Of a stretch of 34,668 nt of DNA, positions 5,255 through 21,837 are shown piece by piece. Below the pieces are notes generated by a model, which was given only the letters and a program-made list of their open reading frames with translations, did no database searches and was not told where the DNA came from. Position 1 is the first letter of the stretch. Every line of letters starts with the position of its first letter. Made by a program: the position numbers and the translations under genes. The stretch is from NCBI GenBank assembly GCA_026706445.1, contig JAPOYT010000272.1:1-34668 (forward strand), given 5' to 3'. The DNA is from Chloroflexota bacterium. Its GTDB lineage: Bacteria; Chloroflexota; Anaerolineae; Aggregatilineales; Phototrophicaceae.

Positions 5255-5737
5255 TTGACTGACACGGTTAGTCCAGAAAAACGAAGCCAAGTAATGGCGC
5301 TCGTCGGGAGCAAGAATACGAAACCCGAACTGTTGATTCGGAAGCGCCTGCACGCTTTGGGATTTCGCTACCGTCTGCATGTCAAAGACCTGCCCGGCAA
5401 GCCTGATCTCGTATTCCCGCGCTATAAGTCAGTAATTCAGATTAATGGATGTTTCTGGCACGGTCATTCCTGCCCGCGCTGCAGAATGCCAAGTTCCAAC
5501 ACTGAGTATTGGAATCGAAAAGTTGCAAGAAACATGGAGCGTGATGCTGCAAATCGTAGGTTGCTCCTTGATGAAGGATGGCGAGTGCTGACGATATGGG
5601 AATGCGCGCTGACTGGCAAATGGAAACTAGGGTTGAGTGAAGTAATTGCGTTGGCGTCCAAGTGGCTCTTGTCGAAAGAGTCAATTTGTGAAATCAAAGG
5701 CGAAATCGGGATGGTTCAAAATGTTGCGCGCGATTGA
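5255..5737 (+). CDS. vsr: Very short patch repair (Vsr) DNA mismatch endonuclease
   Basis: This 160-residue protein nicks DNA next to T:G mismatches that arise when 5-methylcytosine deaminates, protecting the sites methylated by its partner methyltransferase. It starts with the family signature TDTVSPEKRSxxM. The catalytic aspartate is D51 in GKPDLVF, H69 lies in CFWHGH, and the zinc ligands C66, H71, C73 and C117 fall at the same numbers as in E. coli Vsr. That exact register supports the TTG start at 5255, although its ribosome site is weak. The 3' end overlaps the methyltransferase start by 17 bases. All key residues are present, so it looks functional. Confidence 0.93.
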   Translation: MTDTVSPEKRSQVMALVGSKNTKPELLIRKRLHALGFRYRLHVKDLPGKPDLVFPRYKSVIQINGCFWHGHSCPRCRMPSSNTEYWNRKVARNMERDAANRRLLLDEGWRVLTIWECALTGKWKLGLSEVIALASKWLLSKESICEIKGEIGMVQNVARD

Positions 5738-6701
5738 ATTCTTCGCCGGCATGGGGCTTATGCGGGCTGGTCTTGAGCGCGTCGGAATCGAAACGGTCTT
5801 TGCCAACGACATCGACGAAACCAAAGCAAAGCTGTACGCTGACAACTGGGGGCGTGAAGAGTTGCATGTCGGCGACATCCGGGCGCTCAAAGGCGAGGAT
5901 ATCCCAAACGCAGAACTTGTGACCGCGTCATTCCCATGCACGGACATGTCGCTTGCCGGAAATTACAAAGGGCTGAACGGCGCCCAATCTAGCCTCGTGT
6001 TGGATTTTCTGCGGATTCTTGACGACATGGGAGGGCGCGCGCCGCGAACGCTAATGATCGAAAATGTAATGGGTTTTCTGACGGCAAACGGCGGGCGCGA
6101 TTGGGATACGGTTATCACTGGAATCCAGAAACTAGGTTATCAAGCCGCGCACATAATAGTCGACGCGGGCGCCTTTGTCCCGCAAAGCCGAGCGCGAGTA
6201 TTTTTGTTTGGCCACAAAGGGACCATCAATTTGCCAGATCCGCCCGAAATTCGGAAAGACCCCCGACTGGTTGAAATTGCCGAAGAGGACGGCGACTGGT
6301 GGTCGCCAGAACGCCTGCGCGCATTCCTGGAAACCTTGTCGCCAATACAATCCAAGCGTGTTTCCCTCTATCAGCGACGGTTTTGGCCCGGCTGCTACGG
6401 CGCATTTCGCCGAACCAGAGGCGGAAGGCCAGTATGGGAAGTCCGCGCAGATGAACGCGCGGGCGCCTTGCGCACTACCCGCGGGGGCTCGGCAAAACAG
6501 GCGATAGTTCGAGCTGGGCGTGGCGAAATCGCGGTGCGCTGGATGAGCTTGACTGAATATGCTCGGTTACAAGGCGCGGAGAATCTGCGTTACGAATCGG
6601 TAACGCCTTCACAGGCGATGTTTGCCCTAGGCGATGCTGTATGCGTCCCTGTCATCGAATGGATCGCAACAAATTGCCTAATGCCGCTCTTGCGTAAATG
6701 A
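5721..6701 (+). CDS. DNA (cytosine-5-)-methyltransferase
   Basis: This 326-residue C5 methyltransferase transfers a methyl group from S-adenosylmethionine to cytosine at a specific DNA site. Visible motifs are FAGMG (8-12, motif I), SFPC with catalytic C73 (motif IV), ENV at 114-116 (motif VI), QSRAR at 155-159 (motif VIII) and GDAVCVPV near the C terminus (motif X). The target-recognition region between VIII and IX is short, as in small type II enzymes. The frame stays open upstream to 5646, but the ATG at 5721 directly precedes LRAIEFFAGMG, the usual N terminus. The stop overlaps the next start (ATGA at 6698). The neighbour suggests an Eco29kI-like target such as CCGCGG, which is inferred only from the partner. 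Confidence 0.92.
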   Translation: MLRAIEFFAGMGLMRAGLERVGIETVFANDIDETKAKLYADNWGREELHVGDIRALKGEDIPNAELVTASFPCTDMSLAGNYKGLNGAQSSLVLDFLRILDDMGGRAPRTLMIENVMGFLTANGGRDWDTVITGIQKLGYQAAHIIVDAGAFVPQSRARVFLFGHKGTINLPDPPEIRKDPRLVEIAEEDGDWWSPERLRAFLETLSPIQSKRVSLYQRRFWPGCYGAFRRTRGGRPVWEVRADERAGALRTTRGGSAKQAIVRAGRGEIAVRWMSLTEYARLQGAENLRYESVTPSQAMFALGDAVCVPVIEWIATNCLMPLLRK

Positions 6702-10561: not shown

Positions 10562-11491
10562 TTGGCTGCAAGATCGCCTCAATCCAAAGTCCGCGCCTGG
10601 TATCAAGCGCTGCGTCCGCGCGTTTTTACCGCCACCTACGTACCGATGGGCTTGGCCGGCATCGTCGCCCTCGCTGACGGTGTTTTTGAGGCTGGCGCCT
10701 TCCTGCTGGCGCTGATCGGTACGCTCTTCCTGCAAAGCGCAGCCAATCTGATCAACGAATACGCCGATTACCGCCGCGGCGCCGATCGTCTCAAAGAAGC
10801 CGGTCAAGGCATGATCATCAAACACAAGATCCTCGAACCGGCGATCGTTTGCGCGGGCGCCATCCTGACGACGCTCGCCGGCTGTCTCATCGGGCTCTAC
10901 CTCCTGGCGCACAGCGGGCCCCTGCTCTGGCTCATCGGCATCGGCGGCGTGCTCGTCGCTATCACTTACACCGCCGGTCCCTTTCCGCTCGCCTACAACG
11001 GACTGGGCGAAATCGCGGTTGCTGTATTCATGGGTCCGGCGATCGTCGTCGGCGCCTACTACGTCATGGCGCCAGCGGTCAGCGACGCGCGCATCGCCGA
11101 GCTCTGTTTGATCTCGCTGCCGGTCGCCTTCATGGTTTCGGCGATACTGCACGCCAATAATATCCGCGACATGGAAGCCGACCGCGCGGTCAACAAACGC
11201 ACCCTGGCGGTCATCTTCGGCATCCGTTTCGCCCGCGCCGAGTTCATCTTCCTGGTAATCGGCGCTTATGTCGCGCAAGTTCTGGTGGTCGCCGCCGGTC
11301 TCATGCCGCCGCTCACGCTGCTGACGCTGATCACCTTGCCCGAGGCGCTGCGCCTCATACGCATATTCAATACCAGCGCCGCGGTCCCGCTGATGCATCA
11401 AGCCCAGGGGCGCATCGCCAAACTGCACGGGCAGCTCGGCTTGCTGATGGTTGTGGGCTGGTCGCTGTCGCTGGTATTGCCCGCCGCTTGA
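10562..11491 (+). CDS. menA: UbiA-family prenyltransferase, 1,4-dihydroxy-2-naphthoate prenyltransferase (MenA)-like
   Basis: This 309-residue membrane enzyme probably attaches a polyprenyl chain to 1,4-dihydroxy-2-naphthoate, the membrane-bound step of menaquinone synthesis. About eight or nine hydrophobic helices are visible. The two Mg/diphosphate-binding motifs are NLINEYADYRRGAD (about residues 63-76) and NNIRDMEADRAVNKRTLAV (about 198-216), the latter characteristic of MenA. The start is uncertain: TTG at 10562 opens the frame, while the better ribosome site belongs to an out-of-frame ATG at 10531. No other menaquinone gene is nearby, so the assignment rests on the motifs. Confidence 0.85.
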   Translation: MAARSPQSKVRAWYQALRPRVFTATYVPMGLAGIVALADGVFEAGAFLLALIGTLFLQSAANLINEYADYRRGADRLKEAGQGMIIKHKILEPAIVCAGAILTTLAGCLIGLYLLAHSGPLLWLIGIGGVLVAITYTAGPFPLAYNGLGEIAVAVFMGPAIVVGAYYVMAPAVSDARIAELCLISLPVAFMVSAILHANNIRDMEADRAVNKRTLAVIFGIRFARAEFIFLVIGAYVAQVLVVAAGLMPPLTLLTLITLPEALRLIRIFNTSAAVPLMHQAQGRIAKLHGQLGLLMVVGWSLSLVLPAA

Positions 11492-11570: not shown

Positions 11571-12596
11571 ATGACTTCCGACGACCGCGCTGTCAGCTCA
11601 GACGAAACCCCGCAAGCGGAGAAGGCGACTCTTTCTCCCGATCAGATTAAAGGGGCAGCCGCCCAATTCGGCGATGCGCTCGGCGAGACTTCCCCCAAGC
11701 CAGTCGCGCAAATCGGGCAGTTGATCGAAAAATGCGGCTTGCCCTTCGTCGAAAAGATCATGGCGGAGACGGAGGCAATCGAAGCGGAAGGCGGCTTGCT
11801 CACGCACGATCGGAAGCGCCGGCGATCCAAGGGCGGCGTCTTCTTTTATTTGGCGAAAGGGCAGATGGACGCGGGGCTGCGCGCGCAGATCTTCCCCAAT
11901 TTCGGCAAAGGCGGCGATGGCACGATCGCGCCGCCGGGCATCGAGTGGGACAAACGCATCGAACCGATGAATACGCTGCGTCGCGATGCCGGCCAAATCA
12001 GCGGGCTGACTGTGACGCTGAGCGGGCGGCCCGGCAAACTGCATATCGATGGCAGCAGTGTTATGACCGTCATTGAACAGCGGCAAGTCAAGGCGCCACC
12101 CTACCCCAAAGGCGTACCCCACTTCGATACTGTAGACGGCGTCACAAGCTACTATATCTTCATGAGCCTGCGCCACTGGAAGCGGGTGGAAAAGGCGCTG
12201 GAAGACGAATCCGACTTGCTCGTGGTCGAAGGCAGCGCCGTGTATGATGCCAAGCTGGAAGGCATCACCGTACTGTCAACGCGCGTTTCCACCAAGAAGC
12301 TCGATTATCAAAAGCGCAAAGCCAAGACGCTGGGCGCGCAAAGCAGCGCTACGCCGACTGCTAAAGACGAATCGGTGGAACGAGAGGCATCTGCAACCGA
12401 CGAGCGCGAACTGTCCGGTCTGCCGCCGGAAGAAGCCGAAAAACTACAGCAGCTTCAAAAAGCCGCTGACAATCTGCGCCAAAAGCTGGCCGCGATGGAA
12501 GAAGGCGGTCAAGAGTCGGGACAGAAAATGACGCGCCGCTTGCTCAAGCAAACCGAGAAGCAGATCGCCACGCTAAAGCACCGATATAACCGCTAG
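11571..12596 (+). CDS. PHAX-type RNA-binding domain protein with C-terminal coiled coil
   Basis: This 341-residue protein probably binds RNA. Residues ~25-105 resemble the RNA-binding domain of the eukaryotic phosphorylated adaptor for RNA export: IGQLIEKCGLPFVEKIMAET, EAIEAEGGLL, then RKRRRSKGGVFFYLAK, comparable with the GGL-x-GSRRRTPGGVF core of PHAX. A central domain (~120-235) contains YYIFMSLRHWKRVEKALE and VVEGSAVYDAKLEGITVLST. The C terminus (~275-341) is a charged heptad-like coiled coil ending KQIATLKHRYNR. There is no signal peptide or membrane segment. I believe this domain occurs in some Chloroflexota, but its role in bacteria is not established. Located alone between menA and a small membrane protein. 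Confidence 0.75.
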   Translation: MTSDDRAVSSDETPQAEKATLSPDQIKGAAAQFGDALGETSPKPVAQIGQLIEKCGLPFVEKIMAETEAIEAEGGLLTHDRKRRRSKGGVFFYLAKGQMDAGLRAQIFPNFGKGGDGTIAPPGIEWDKRIEPMNTLRRDAGQISGLTVTLSGRPGKLHIDGSSVMTVIEQRQVKAPPYPKGVPHFDTVDGVTSYYIFMSLRHWKRVEKALEDESDLLVVEGSAVYDAKLEGITVLSTRVSTKKLDYQKRKAKTLGAQSSATPTAKDESVEREASATDERELSGLPPEEAEKLQQLQKAADNLRQKLAAMEEGGQESGQKMTRRLLKQTEKQIATLKHRYNR

Positions 12597-12846: not shown

Positions 12847-13389
12847 ATGAATACCTCTCGCAGAATAAAAGTAAGAGCTAGAGAAACGCCGAATCTTACC
12901 GATCAAGAGAAAACCATCTTTTCGCTATTGGATGCCAACATAAATGACACTGTTGATATTTTAGCGTCGTTGGAAAGGAAAGCGCAATACAACTTCGTCG
13001 TCACCAGTAGTATGGCTGCGGTCGTCGTTTTGGTAAACATTGAATTATATAAACTCGAGAAAGTGACTGACGAGATGCAGTTCGCATTGATAGCGTTCGG
13101 TGTGCTGTATTTCGCAGTTGCAGTCTGTTCTATTCTAAGCCTGCGACCAAGAGTAGTGGGTATTCGCCCACTAGATCCAACTTGGGAAACTGTGTCGAAT
13201 TTCCGCAACTATAATTGGAGTGAGTTTCGCAACCAGCTCATTCTTCATTATGTTGACATTCATGAAGAAAACGATTCAATAATCAGGCAGAAGAATAGAT
13301 GGATCGTAATCTCGTATCTGTTTGTTGCCGGGGCGATGCTAGCGATCTTAGCGGAAGCTGCGCTTTTCTTGATATACCCTCCCTCATAA
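12847..13389 (+). CDS. Small membrane protein with three predicted helices, unknown function
   Basis: This 180-residue protein has hydrophobic segments at about 50-70 (VVTSSMAAVVVLVNIELY), 78-99 and 151-177, a soluble N-terminal ~45 residues and a soluble loop of ~50 residues between helices 2 and 3 that ends HEENDSIIRQKNRW. The layout (two close helices, a cytoplasmic linker, a third helix) is reminiscent of SLATT or Pycsar-effector (PycTM) membrane proteins, but I cannot establish homology and there is no cyclase or other defence gene beside it. The ATG has GGAG five bases upstream. Base composition is more AT-rich than the flanking metabolic genes, which hints at transfer. Confidence 0.6.
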   Translation: MNTSRRIKVRARETPNLTDQEKTIFSLLDANINDTVDILASLERKAQYNFVVTSSMAAVVVLVNIELYKLEKVTDEMQFALIAFGVLYFAVAVCSILSLRPRVVGIRPLDPTWETVSNFRNYNWSEFRNQLILHYVDIHEENDSIIRQKNRWIVISYLFVAGAMLAILAEAALFLIYPPS

Positions 13390-13434: not shown

Positions 13435-14256
13435 TCAAACCGTCCAGCGCCAGATTTGATCCCAGGCGGCCATCCAGCTATCCGCGCGGCTAAACACTCG
13501 CTGCGCCGCCCGGTCGAGTTCGACGCCGGGCTTCCCTTTGAAGTCATCCATCATCTCGACTTTGTCGACTTCTATGCTGATCGTCACCGGCGACGCCGGC
13601 GCATAAGGCGCCACCGCCGTCAGATCTTGCAGGGCTTGAAAAGCGCCTTCTTCAATCATCTCGCGCGCCCGCTTTGGCGGAATCTGCCGCGCCGAGTAAC
13701 GCGACAGCCCACGCTTTACAGCGACAGTCTTCAGTCCCGATCCCAGCAGTTCAGTCACTTCCCGGCAGACGGCCTCATCGCCGGTGACCAAAAGCACCGG
13801 GCAGCCGTAATGCCCGCAGAGCGCCGCATTGATACCCGACTCGCCTACCAAGTCGTCATTGAACCAGAGATTGTGCCATTTCACCGTCGAAATGGTATGG
13901 GAAAGCACACCATCGGCGGTGTTATTGCGCGCGTGCATGCCGACCAGCAGGCAGGCGTCCGCGACCTGCTCCAGCAGCTCGGTATAGCGCGACCAGGGAT
14001 GATGCGCCACCCAAGTGCAATTCACATCAAGGTCTTCGGGAATAAATGAGTTAAAGGTCCAATCACCGCCGGCGCCATGGCAATCCACCACCACGATTTC
14101 GTCGGCGCCCGCCCGCTTCGCGCCGCGCACAGCCGCGTTGATCTCCGCGGTGTAAAGCTTGCGCCTCTCTTCATACATCGGCGCGCCACCGCTTACCTGG
14201 CTCCAAGTCACAATCCCGCTCACGCCTTCCATATCCGCCATAATCAGGACTTTCAT
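13435..14256 (-). CDS. M55 family D-aminopeptidase (DppA-like)
   Basis: This zinc metallopeptidase of 273 residues removes N-terminal D-amino acids such as D-Ala from short peptides. The zinc and catalytic residues are visible at positions close to Bacillus DppA: D8 and E10 in MADMEG, H60 in VVDCHGAGG, H108 in VGMHARN, H120 in VLSHTIS and E139 in LVGESGINA. The frame stays open upstream to 14400, but the ATG at 14256 has GGGAG at good spacing and gives the standard MKVLIMADMEG start. It follows, on the same strand, a dipeptide-epimerase-like gene ~210 bases upstream. Together they suggest processing of peptidoglycan-derived or other D-amino-acid peptides. Confidence 0.9.
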   Translation of the reverse strand: MKVLIMADMEGVSGIVTWSQVSGGAPMYEERRKLYTAEINAAVRGAKRAGADEIVVVDCHGAGGDWTFNSFIPEDLDVNCTWVAHHPWSRYTELLEQVADACLLVGMHARNNTADGVLSHTISTVKWHNLWFNDDLVGESGINAALCGHYGCPVLLVTGDEAVCREVTELLGSGLKTVAVKRGLSRYSARQIPPKRAREMIEEGAFQALQDLTAVAPYAPASPVTISIEVDKVEMMDDFKGKPGVELDRAAQRVFSRADSWMAAWDQIWRWTV

Positions 14257-14360
14257 ATTGCTCCCTTTCTCTATAGCGCAACTTCGCGTCAGTAGGGCGA
14301 TTTTATCACCTTCTGTTGGAAGTTTGCGTTTGTGCCGAAGCCACAATGAATCTTCCGAAT

Positions 14361-14385
14361 GTAGGGGCGACCTAGTAGGTCGCCC
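14361..14385. repeat. GC-rich intergenic hairpin (9-bp perfect arms)
   Basis: GGGCGACCT-agt-AGGTCGCCC (14365-14385) follows GTAG, as in the hairpin at 9068-9087 and in partial copies near 19159-19179 and 26670-26686. Outer bases are conserved and inner bases co-vary as pairs, so it is a short dispersed hairpin family. Confidence 0.6.
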
Positions 14386-14467
14386 GCATGACAACGACAA
14401 TACATCAACCCACCGGCTCGCCCCTACACACAGTTCGTATATACGCGGCCGCGCAGTTACTATCTGA

Positions 14468-20236: not shown

Positions 20237-21226
20237 ATGATGAACGAACGCGACCAATTGGTCGAGCCGGACACTTTGGAAACCATCACTGCGTCCCTAC
20301 CCGATCGCCAGCGACCACTATTCGAAACTCAATTAGACGGCGACGAAGAACCGCGCCAACAGTGGCTTGGCTTGCGCCAAGATTCAGACAGTTCCCGCAA
20401 CGACGCTGTCCTCGAATGCCGTGACAACCTAGAGTTTTTGCGAGAGCAGCCGAACAATAAATTCAAGCTTGTCGTTACTTCGCCGCCCTATAATATCGGC
20501 AAGAGCTATGAATCGCGCTCGCCGATGGATCAATACTTGGCAGACCAGGAAGAGGTTATCCGCGAATGCGTTCGGGTATTGCATCCAAAAGGCTCGATCT
20601 GCTGGCAAGTGGGCAATTTCACGGACAAAGGAGAGATCTTGCCCTTGGATTGTTTGCTCTTCCCGATATTTCGCGGGTTCGGCTTGAAGCTCCGCAATCG
20701 TATCATTTGGCATTTCGGTCACGGCTTGCACTCAAGTAAGCGGCTATCAGGTCGCTACGAGACCATCAATTGGTGGACCAAAGGTGATGACTATACCTGG
20801 CATTTGGATCCGATCCGCGTGCCGTCGAAATATCCCGGCAAACGACACTTCAAAGGACCGCGCAAGGGAGAATTGTCTGGTAATCCAAAGGGAAAGAACC
20901 CAAGCGATGTTTGGGAATTTCCAAACGTCAAGAACAACCATCCGGAGAAAACCAATCATCCCTGCCAGTTTCCGGTAGAACTGGTTGAGCGCCTGGTGCT
21001 ATCGATGACTGATGAAAACGACGATGTGCTGGATCCCTACGTCGGCGTCGGCTCTTCTGTCATCGCCGCGATAATGCACAATCGCAACGGCTACGGCTGT
21101 GACATAGTCGAAGAATACATCTCGATCGCCCGCCAGCGAGTCCGTGACTTGCAGGGGGGCCGCCTCAAAACGCGACCGATGGGCAAACCCGTCTACGACC
21201 CAATGCTGCCCAATGGCGGACATTGA
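20237..21226 (+). CDS. Type II DNA methyltransferase (beta-class, probably N4-cytosine) of a BglII/BstYI-type system
   Basis: This 329-residue enzyme methylates an exocyclic amino group in DNA using S-adenosylmethionine. The catalytic motif IV TSPPYNIGKSYE lies near residues 81-92 and precedes motif I (DPYVGVGSSVIAA, ~267-279), the beta-class order. SPPY fits an N4-cytosine enzyme, but adenine cannot be ruled out. The N-terminal ~55 residues are acidic and outside the catalytic core. The stop overlaps the next start by one base (TGATG); that gene is a BstYI-like endonuclease, so the expected target is RGATCY. Start at 20237 or the adjacent ATG at 20240. Confidence 0.88.
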   Translation: MMNERDQLVEPDTLETITASLPDRQRPLFETQLDGDEEPRQQWLGLRQDSDSSRNDAVLECRDNLEFLREQPNNKFKLVVTSPPYNIGKSYESRSPMDQYLADQEEVIRECVRVLHPKGSICWQVGNFTDKGEILPLDCLLFPIFRGFGLKLRNRIIWHFGHGLHSSKRLSGRYETINWWTKGDDYTWHLDPIRVPSKYPGKRHFKGPRKGELSGNPKGKNPSDVWEFPNVKNNHPEKTNHPCQFPVELVERLVLSMTDENDDVLDPYVGVGSSVIAAIMHNRNGYGCDIVEEYISIARQRVRDLQGGRLKTRPMGKPVYDPMLPNGGH

Positions 21227-21837
21227 TGCGGATCGCAGCACAATACTCCCACCTCAACGGCTTGGAATACATGCTCGTTCACCACAACGACTTGTGGGAA
21301 GAGATTCAGTTGGTCATTGCCAATGTTGATGCCGAAGCCTGCAAGACAAAGGAGTCCAAAGAAAAGACAATGCCGGGCAGGATGCTGTATTCGCCCAAAG
21401 ACATGAACGATGAGTTCAAGCTCAGCTTTGAGAGCTTAGGATGGAAGCAGCGGAGGCAGACCTTTTACGTAACAGACGACGAACGTCTAATGCGAAGCAT
21501 TTACAGCCGGCCAGATGATGTTCAGAAACGCGAAATCGAAGCGGCCGGTCGTGAGCCAATTATGTCCTACAATCAGACCGACTTTGTCAAGAACCGGCTT
21601 GCCGTCGAGGTGCAGTTCGGCAAGTATTCTTTTGTAGCGCACGACTTATTTGTGAAACATCTCAGTTTCTTCGTCGCCGATATCATCGACGTCGGTATAG
21701 AAATCCTGCCGATGAAGCAAATGGAGCGAGATATGTCGTCTGGCGTTCCGTATTACGAACGGGATCTTGTCAACGTAATTCGACAGGGTCGCGGTGTTCC
21801 TGCCGTTCCCCTGATCTTGCTTGGCGTCGTTCCCTAG
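21226..21837 (+). CDS. BglII/BstYI-family type II restriction endonuclease
   Basis: This 203-residue endonuclease is strikingly close to BstYI throughout: MRIAAQYSHLNGLEY, DAEACKTKESKEKT, SYNQTDFVK, AVEVQFGKYSFVAHDLFVKH, DVGIEILPMK and NVIRQGRGVPAVPL. The catalytic residues of the family fall at D119, E128 and Q130 with the D-x8-E-x-Q spacing. It should cut unmethylated RGATCY as a dimer; that specificity is inferred from similarity. The ATG at 21226 overlaps the methyltransferase stop and is preferred over the TTG one codon upstream. No frame break is visible, so the system looks intact. Confidence 0.93.
   Translation: MRIAAQYSHLNGLEYMLVHHNDLWEEIQLVIANVDAEACKTKESKEKTMPGRMLYSPKDMNDEFKLSFESLGWKQRRQTFYVTDDERLMRSIYSRPDDVQKREIEAAGREPIMSYNQTDFVKNRLAVEVQFGKYSFVAHDLFVKHLSFFVADIIDVGIEILPMKQMERDMSSGVPYYERDLVNVIRQGRGVPAVPLILLGVVP

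Follow-up and report, generated by a model that had tools for sequence, protein, structure and literature searches.

A PHAX RNA-binding domain in a Chloroflexota protein with a predicted OB fold and a C-terminal helical hairpin

Background

In animals, PHAX helps to move small RNAs out of the nucleus. The human protein, the phosphorylated adapter for RNA export, has 394 residues that are mostly disordered outside the RNA-binding domain, and its cap-binding-complex, exportin and phosphorylation segments lie upstream of that domain, at residues 55-162 (PMC12350170). The domain itself binds single-stranded RNA (ssRNA), and PDB entry 2xc7 is its complex with ssRNA. A PHAX-type domain from Cryptosporidium is represented by 2w4s. 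Among bacterial proteins, those with an RRM or a cold-shock domain (CSD) are small stand-alone RNA binders, and SSB and PriB share the OB fold.

Here, we analysed a gene of a Chloroflexota bacterium whose product joins a PHAX domain to a predicted OB fold and a helical hairpin (the PHAX-OB gene). It lies in a stretch of 34,668 nucleotides, which we call the window. A preliminary description had presented the protein as carrying a eukaryotic-style RNA-binding domain, followed by an unknown middle domain and a C-terminal coiled coil.

Results

The gene, its neighbours and the parts of the protein are listed in Table 1. The window protein was modelled with AlphaFold2 (mean pLDDT 81.7), and a second, independent bacterial family member was also modelled (mean pLDDT 92.4).

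Table 1. Positions in the window of the PHAX-OB gene, the parts of its product and the flanking genes
Feature	Positions	Strand	Basis or remark
UbiA-family (MenA-like) prenyltransferase, upstream neighbour	10562..11491	+	PF01040, 108 bits
PHAX-OB-hairpin protein gene	11571..12596	+	Intact ORF, ATG to stop, 341 aa
N-terminal tail, disordered, residues 1-22	11571..11636	+	pLDDT <50 at residues 1-18; poorly conserved
PHAX RNA-binding domain, residues 23-109	11637..11897	+	PF10258 match; model alignment to 2w4s, 2xc7
Predicted SSB/PriB-type OB fold, residues 142-250	11994..12320	+	Five-strand model; PriB/SSB structural matches; without Pfam family
Low-complexity linker, residues 251-285	12321..12425	+	pLDDT <50 at 259-279; among the fastest-changing parts
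C-terminal helical hairpin, residues 286-340	12426..12590	+	Model helices 286-312 and 318-340; cross-family profile
M55 D-aminopeptidase, downstream flank	13435..14400	-	PF04951, 237 bits

At the sequence level, PF10258 (PHAX_RNA-bd) scored 47.8 bits (E=1.4e-12) over residues 45-106, where the curated cut-off is 25 bits. The two motifs quoted in the preliminary description, ETEAIEAEGGLL and RRRSKGGVFFYLAK, were located within the intact ORF at residues 66-77 and 83-96. When the window protein alone was searched against the PDB with phmmer, the top two matches were PHAX-domain entries, both weak (2w4s, E=0.003; 2xc7, 0.0095). A profile built only from 16 bacterial copies recovered human PHAX from the PDB (2xc7, E=1.8e-19; 8pnt, 1.7e-18), with the match starting at residue 226 of the human protein, as well as the Cryptosporidium domain (2w4s, 5.4e-16); the remaining matches were only de novo repeat proteins, at 2e-7 or worse.

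At the structural level, residues 23-107 of the window model form five helices. The best structural match of both bacterial models was 2w4s (Z 11.4, rmsd 1.7 over 81 residues for the window protein; Z 13.2, rmsd 1.5 over 81 for the independent member), and 2xc7 was matched at Z 8.2 and 9.3, respectively. The Cryptosporidium domain is eukaryotic, and the protein that surrounds it differs from the bacterial one.

Ten positions are invariant or nearly so among the bacterial copies (L37, E39, G56, G74, G75, R83, R85, G88, G89, and L94 in window numbering), and human PHAX has them too. They include the conserved GG ... R-x-R ... GG core that is common to human PHAX and present in the window protein as G74 G75, R83-R85, and G88 G89. 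By profile and predicted fold, the bacterial domain is the same as that of eukaryotic PHAX (2xc7, 8pnt), with glycines and arginines conserved in both. Thus, the bacterial PHAX fold reported earlier is borne out by the profile, the reciprocal profile, and the fold match: the region is a true PHAX RNA-binding domain, with RNA binding itself predicted. We also considered a chance motif, which is ruled out by the same two profiles and by the predicted fold in two models.

The resemblance is confined to the domain. The N-terminal export segments of PHAX are absent from the window protein, which, in contrast to human PHAX, has only 22 residues before the domain and carries the OB fold and the hairpin. 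Because the part of PHAX that performs export is missing, an snRNA-export role is inapplicable, in agreement with the earlier remark that a bacterium has no such need. The window protein belongs to the PHAX RNA-binding domain family but is neither a PHAX protein nor an RNA-export adaptor.

The middle domain, first described as unknown, is not named by Pfam. Sequence searches place it in no Pfam family and give no usable PDB match, the SSB family PF00436 does not match the window protein at E up to 1, and a profile of the domain found no SSB chain in the PDB. In the window model, it is a five-strand domain with PriB/SSB chains as structural neighbours (Z 7.2-8.5), and SSB/PriB chains were consistently matched in both models at Z 7-8.6, a range that the tool rates middling. 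Across 16 copies, a tryptophan, an E-G pair, and a P-x-G-x-P loop are found in the invariant columns. We refer to the domain as a predicted OB fold of the SSB/PriB type, keeping the qualifier because it lacks a sequence family match. The putative OB fold would be what the protein has in common with bacterial SSB and PriB, from which it differs by sequence family, by its fusion to RNA-binding modules, and by the separate SSB that the genome keeps.

The C-terminus is conserved and, as had been proposed, helical, but is better termed a helical hairpin than a coiled coil. A hairpin profile from 21 PHAX-OB proteins scored 36 to 23 bits on the C-termini of five of seven RRM-PHAX proteins, in the same order, whereas the maximum was 14.5 bits in 2064 shuffles and 17.4 bits in 700 block shuffles. 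Since those five lie above all shuffles, the hairpin seems to be shared as a module, and it may be a separate, undescribed one common to PHAX-OB and RRM-PHAX proteins.

Comparison with an 86%-identical ortholog indicated purifying selection (dN 0.088 and dS 0.309 over the whole gene). The PHAX part had the lowest dN of this ortholog pair (0.024), and the constraint was strongest on the PHAX and OB parts.

Within the collection of named genomes, the host is related to Anaerolineae and Chloroflexi MAGs. We counted the genomes with PF10258 above its cut-off. The domain occurred in 16 of 301 genomes from a phylum-wide sample of Chloroflexota, 38 of 158 in the class holding Herpetosiphon-type genomes, 68 of 154 in the window's order, and 12 of 34 in its genus; none of 14 named control genomes had it. 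In the sequences that we read, the fusion partner of PHAX was an RRM, one or several cold-shock domains, one OB domain, or two OB domains, and some bacterial PHAX domains were unfused, with a short basic tail. Among 63 family members, PHAX was matched in all 63, RRM_1 in 12, and CSD in four; the window protein itself has neither RRM nor CSD, unlike the bacterial RRM and cold-shock proteins. The OB domain was found in 55 of 87 distinct proteins and, within the 301-genome sample, only in PHAX-bearing genomes (13 of 13 genomes with OB). There is a cultured relative: Haur_5073 of Herpetosiphon aurantiacus DSM 785, which is encoded on plasmid pHAU01 and has two OB domains.

Two single proteins extend this range of architectures. 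One (L145) apparently combines RRM, PHAX, and OB in one chain, with the RRM judged by eye, and in the other (L050) PHAX is followed by a C-terminal domain of a different kind.

As judged from sequence, the PHAX domain is a widespread, freely recombined module of Chloroflexota proteins with predicted RNA binding rather than an isolated eukaryotic oddity. The direction of transfer implied by the label 'eukaryotic-style' is not apparent. In a short unrooted alignment with two eukaryotic sequences, the human and Cryptosporidium domains fell within the bacterial spread (median identity of 39% between bacterial pairs and 36% between human and bacterial domains); with two such sequences and no root, the alignment says nothing on the direction.

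Eukaryotic contamination of the assembly was considered and rejected: the neighbours are bacterial, the same gene occupies the same site in the window and in 10 congeners, and the domain occurs in other families of the phylum.

The PHAX-OB gene lies between the UbiA-family prenyltransferase and the M55 peptidase in the window and in all 10 examined congener loci that have the gene. The prenyltransferase and the peptidase adjoin in 15 congeners without it, one of which has a small membrane-protein gene between them. In a tree of the flanking genes, the PHAX-OB gene occurred in two clades, with absences within or beside them. As the site is the same throughout, an ancestral gain with later losses would be the simpler reading, and the patchy presence in the genus indicates that the gene is dispensable.

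Next to it, positions 12847-13389 encode a protein of 180 aa that has hydrophobic stretches but matches no Pfam family. A congener locus where the PHAX gene is absent (L105) has a copy at the same site.

In the window and the 10 congener loci, the PHAX-OB gene immediately follows the UbiA-family gene in the same orientation, which could suggest a regulator dedicated to a single transcript or a few, for example the prenyltransferase mRNA or its own, instead of a general RNA binder. We regard this as very unlikely: the prenyltransferase is kept in the 15 congeners without the PHAX gene, a member from a neighbouring genus and its prenyltransferase homologues are on separate contigs, and no Rfam element was found near the gene. 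Promoter and terminator scans at the gene gave no excess over shuffles.

In 20 loci from across the phylum, the only neighbours to recur were those of closely related pairs and some generic regulators. The latter were common to two later members of the survey, and we treated this as chance. A conserved operon partner was thus rejected, as none recurs across the 20 loci.

Regarding mobile elements, the phage search gave no match to the window protein, and the viral scans were empty or without a relative on viral contigs. The plasmid search returned pHAU01 of Herpetosiphon as the sole plasmid with a relative; a short PHAX query gave no match, and among the matches listed for an RRM-PHAX protein only the RRM half was covered. 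We therefore rejected a phage, virus, or plasmid origin, with no phage match, no viral relative, and one plasmid only.

Other genes in the window and around the cultured relative are of note on their own. A Vsr mismatch endonuclease gene overlaps a C5 cytosine DNA methylase gene at 5255-6701, and some congeners have related genes close to this place. At 20237-21837, the gene for a DNA methylase (PF01555) precedes that for a BglII-like restriction endonuclease (PF09195). On pHAU01, some 2 kb separate Haur_5073 (L121) from CRISPR-Cas genes (cst1, devR family, cas5, and cas3).

A role as a component of a mobile or defence element could draw on the patchy presence, on the plasmid-borne relative near CRISPR-Cas genes, and on the restriction-modification genes in the window. 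Nevertheless, the chromosomal site is fixed and flanked by conserved metabolic genes, phage matches and viral-contig relatives are lacking, and the neighbours do not recur, so that we consider such a role extremely improbable.

Discussion

We propose that the PHAX-OB protein is a stand-alone, modular single-stranded-nucleic-acid-binding protein whose likely target is RNA and which would serve as a chaperone or regulate RNAs post-transcriptionally. RNA is favoured over DNA, and such a role over others, because the family partners of PHAX are RRM and cold-shock domains, neither Hfq nor an RRM protein was found in the host genome, and a canonical SSB is encoded elsewhere in it.

By analogy with human PHAX, the PHAX domain would grip a few nucleotides of ssRNA through the conserved GG...R-x-R-(S/T)-x-GG-V-F segment, in which the actual RNA-contact residues are presumably conserved. 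The OB fold, in which a P-x-G-x-P loop is conserved, may hold a further stretch of the same strand, and the hairpin may dimerise or contact a partner, which would multiply or localise the binding and give avidity on flexible RNA. The protein would then stabilise, remodel, or sequester RNAs in a genome where Hfq was not detected.

DNA is the usual ligand of SSB/PriB folds, which makes a DNA role conceivable for the PHAX-OB protein, and DNA binding through the OB fold is the strongest rival to our proposal. The protein would then belong to DNA metabolism, for example replication restart or recombination, with the OB fold binding ssDNA and PHAX adding affinity. The nearest folds of the middle domain in the models are indeed SSB and PriB, and the hairpin could recruit other proteins. 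However, the other partner domains in the family (RRM and cold-shock) are RNA-type modules, the host has its own canonical SSB, replication or recombination neighbours do not recur in the 20 loci, and the sequence does not match the SSB family. On balance, we find a function in DNA metabolism unlikely.

We offer a broader hypothesis as doubtful: PHAX would be a general RNA-chaperone module in Chloroflexota that replaces Hfq or ProQ, and the domain would also have been exchanged with early eukaryotes, where the snRNA-export adaptor adopted a pre-existing bacterial grip on ssRNA.

The preliminary description had also suggested an undescribed RNA-handling system. Our search of the open-access literature returned no paper on PHAX domains in bacteria; the Pfam model evidently already recognises bacterial PHAX sequences. 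There is no sign of a multi-gene system: neighbours do not recur across the phylum, and the PHAX-OB protein has no obligatory partner gene. Overall, the first reading was right about a genuine bacterial PHAX domain, a middle domain unnamed by Pfam, and a C-terminus made of helices; a single oddity and a multi-gene system are not indicated, and the direction of transfer implied by 'eukaryotic-style' is not shown by the data.

Conclusions

The PHAX domain, familiar from nuclear RNA export in eukaryotes, is a common module in a bacterial phylum. If the bacterial PHAX proteins bind RNA, they would constitute an unstudied class of bacterial RNA-binding proteins, and the origin of the eukaryotic domain would be reopened.
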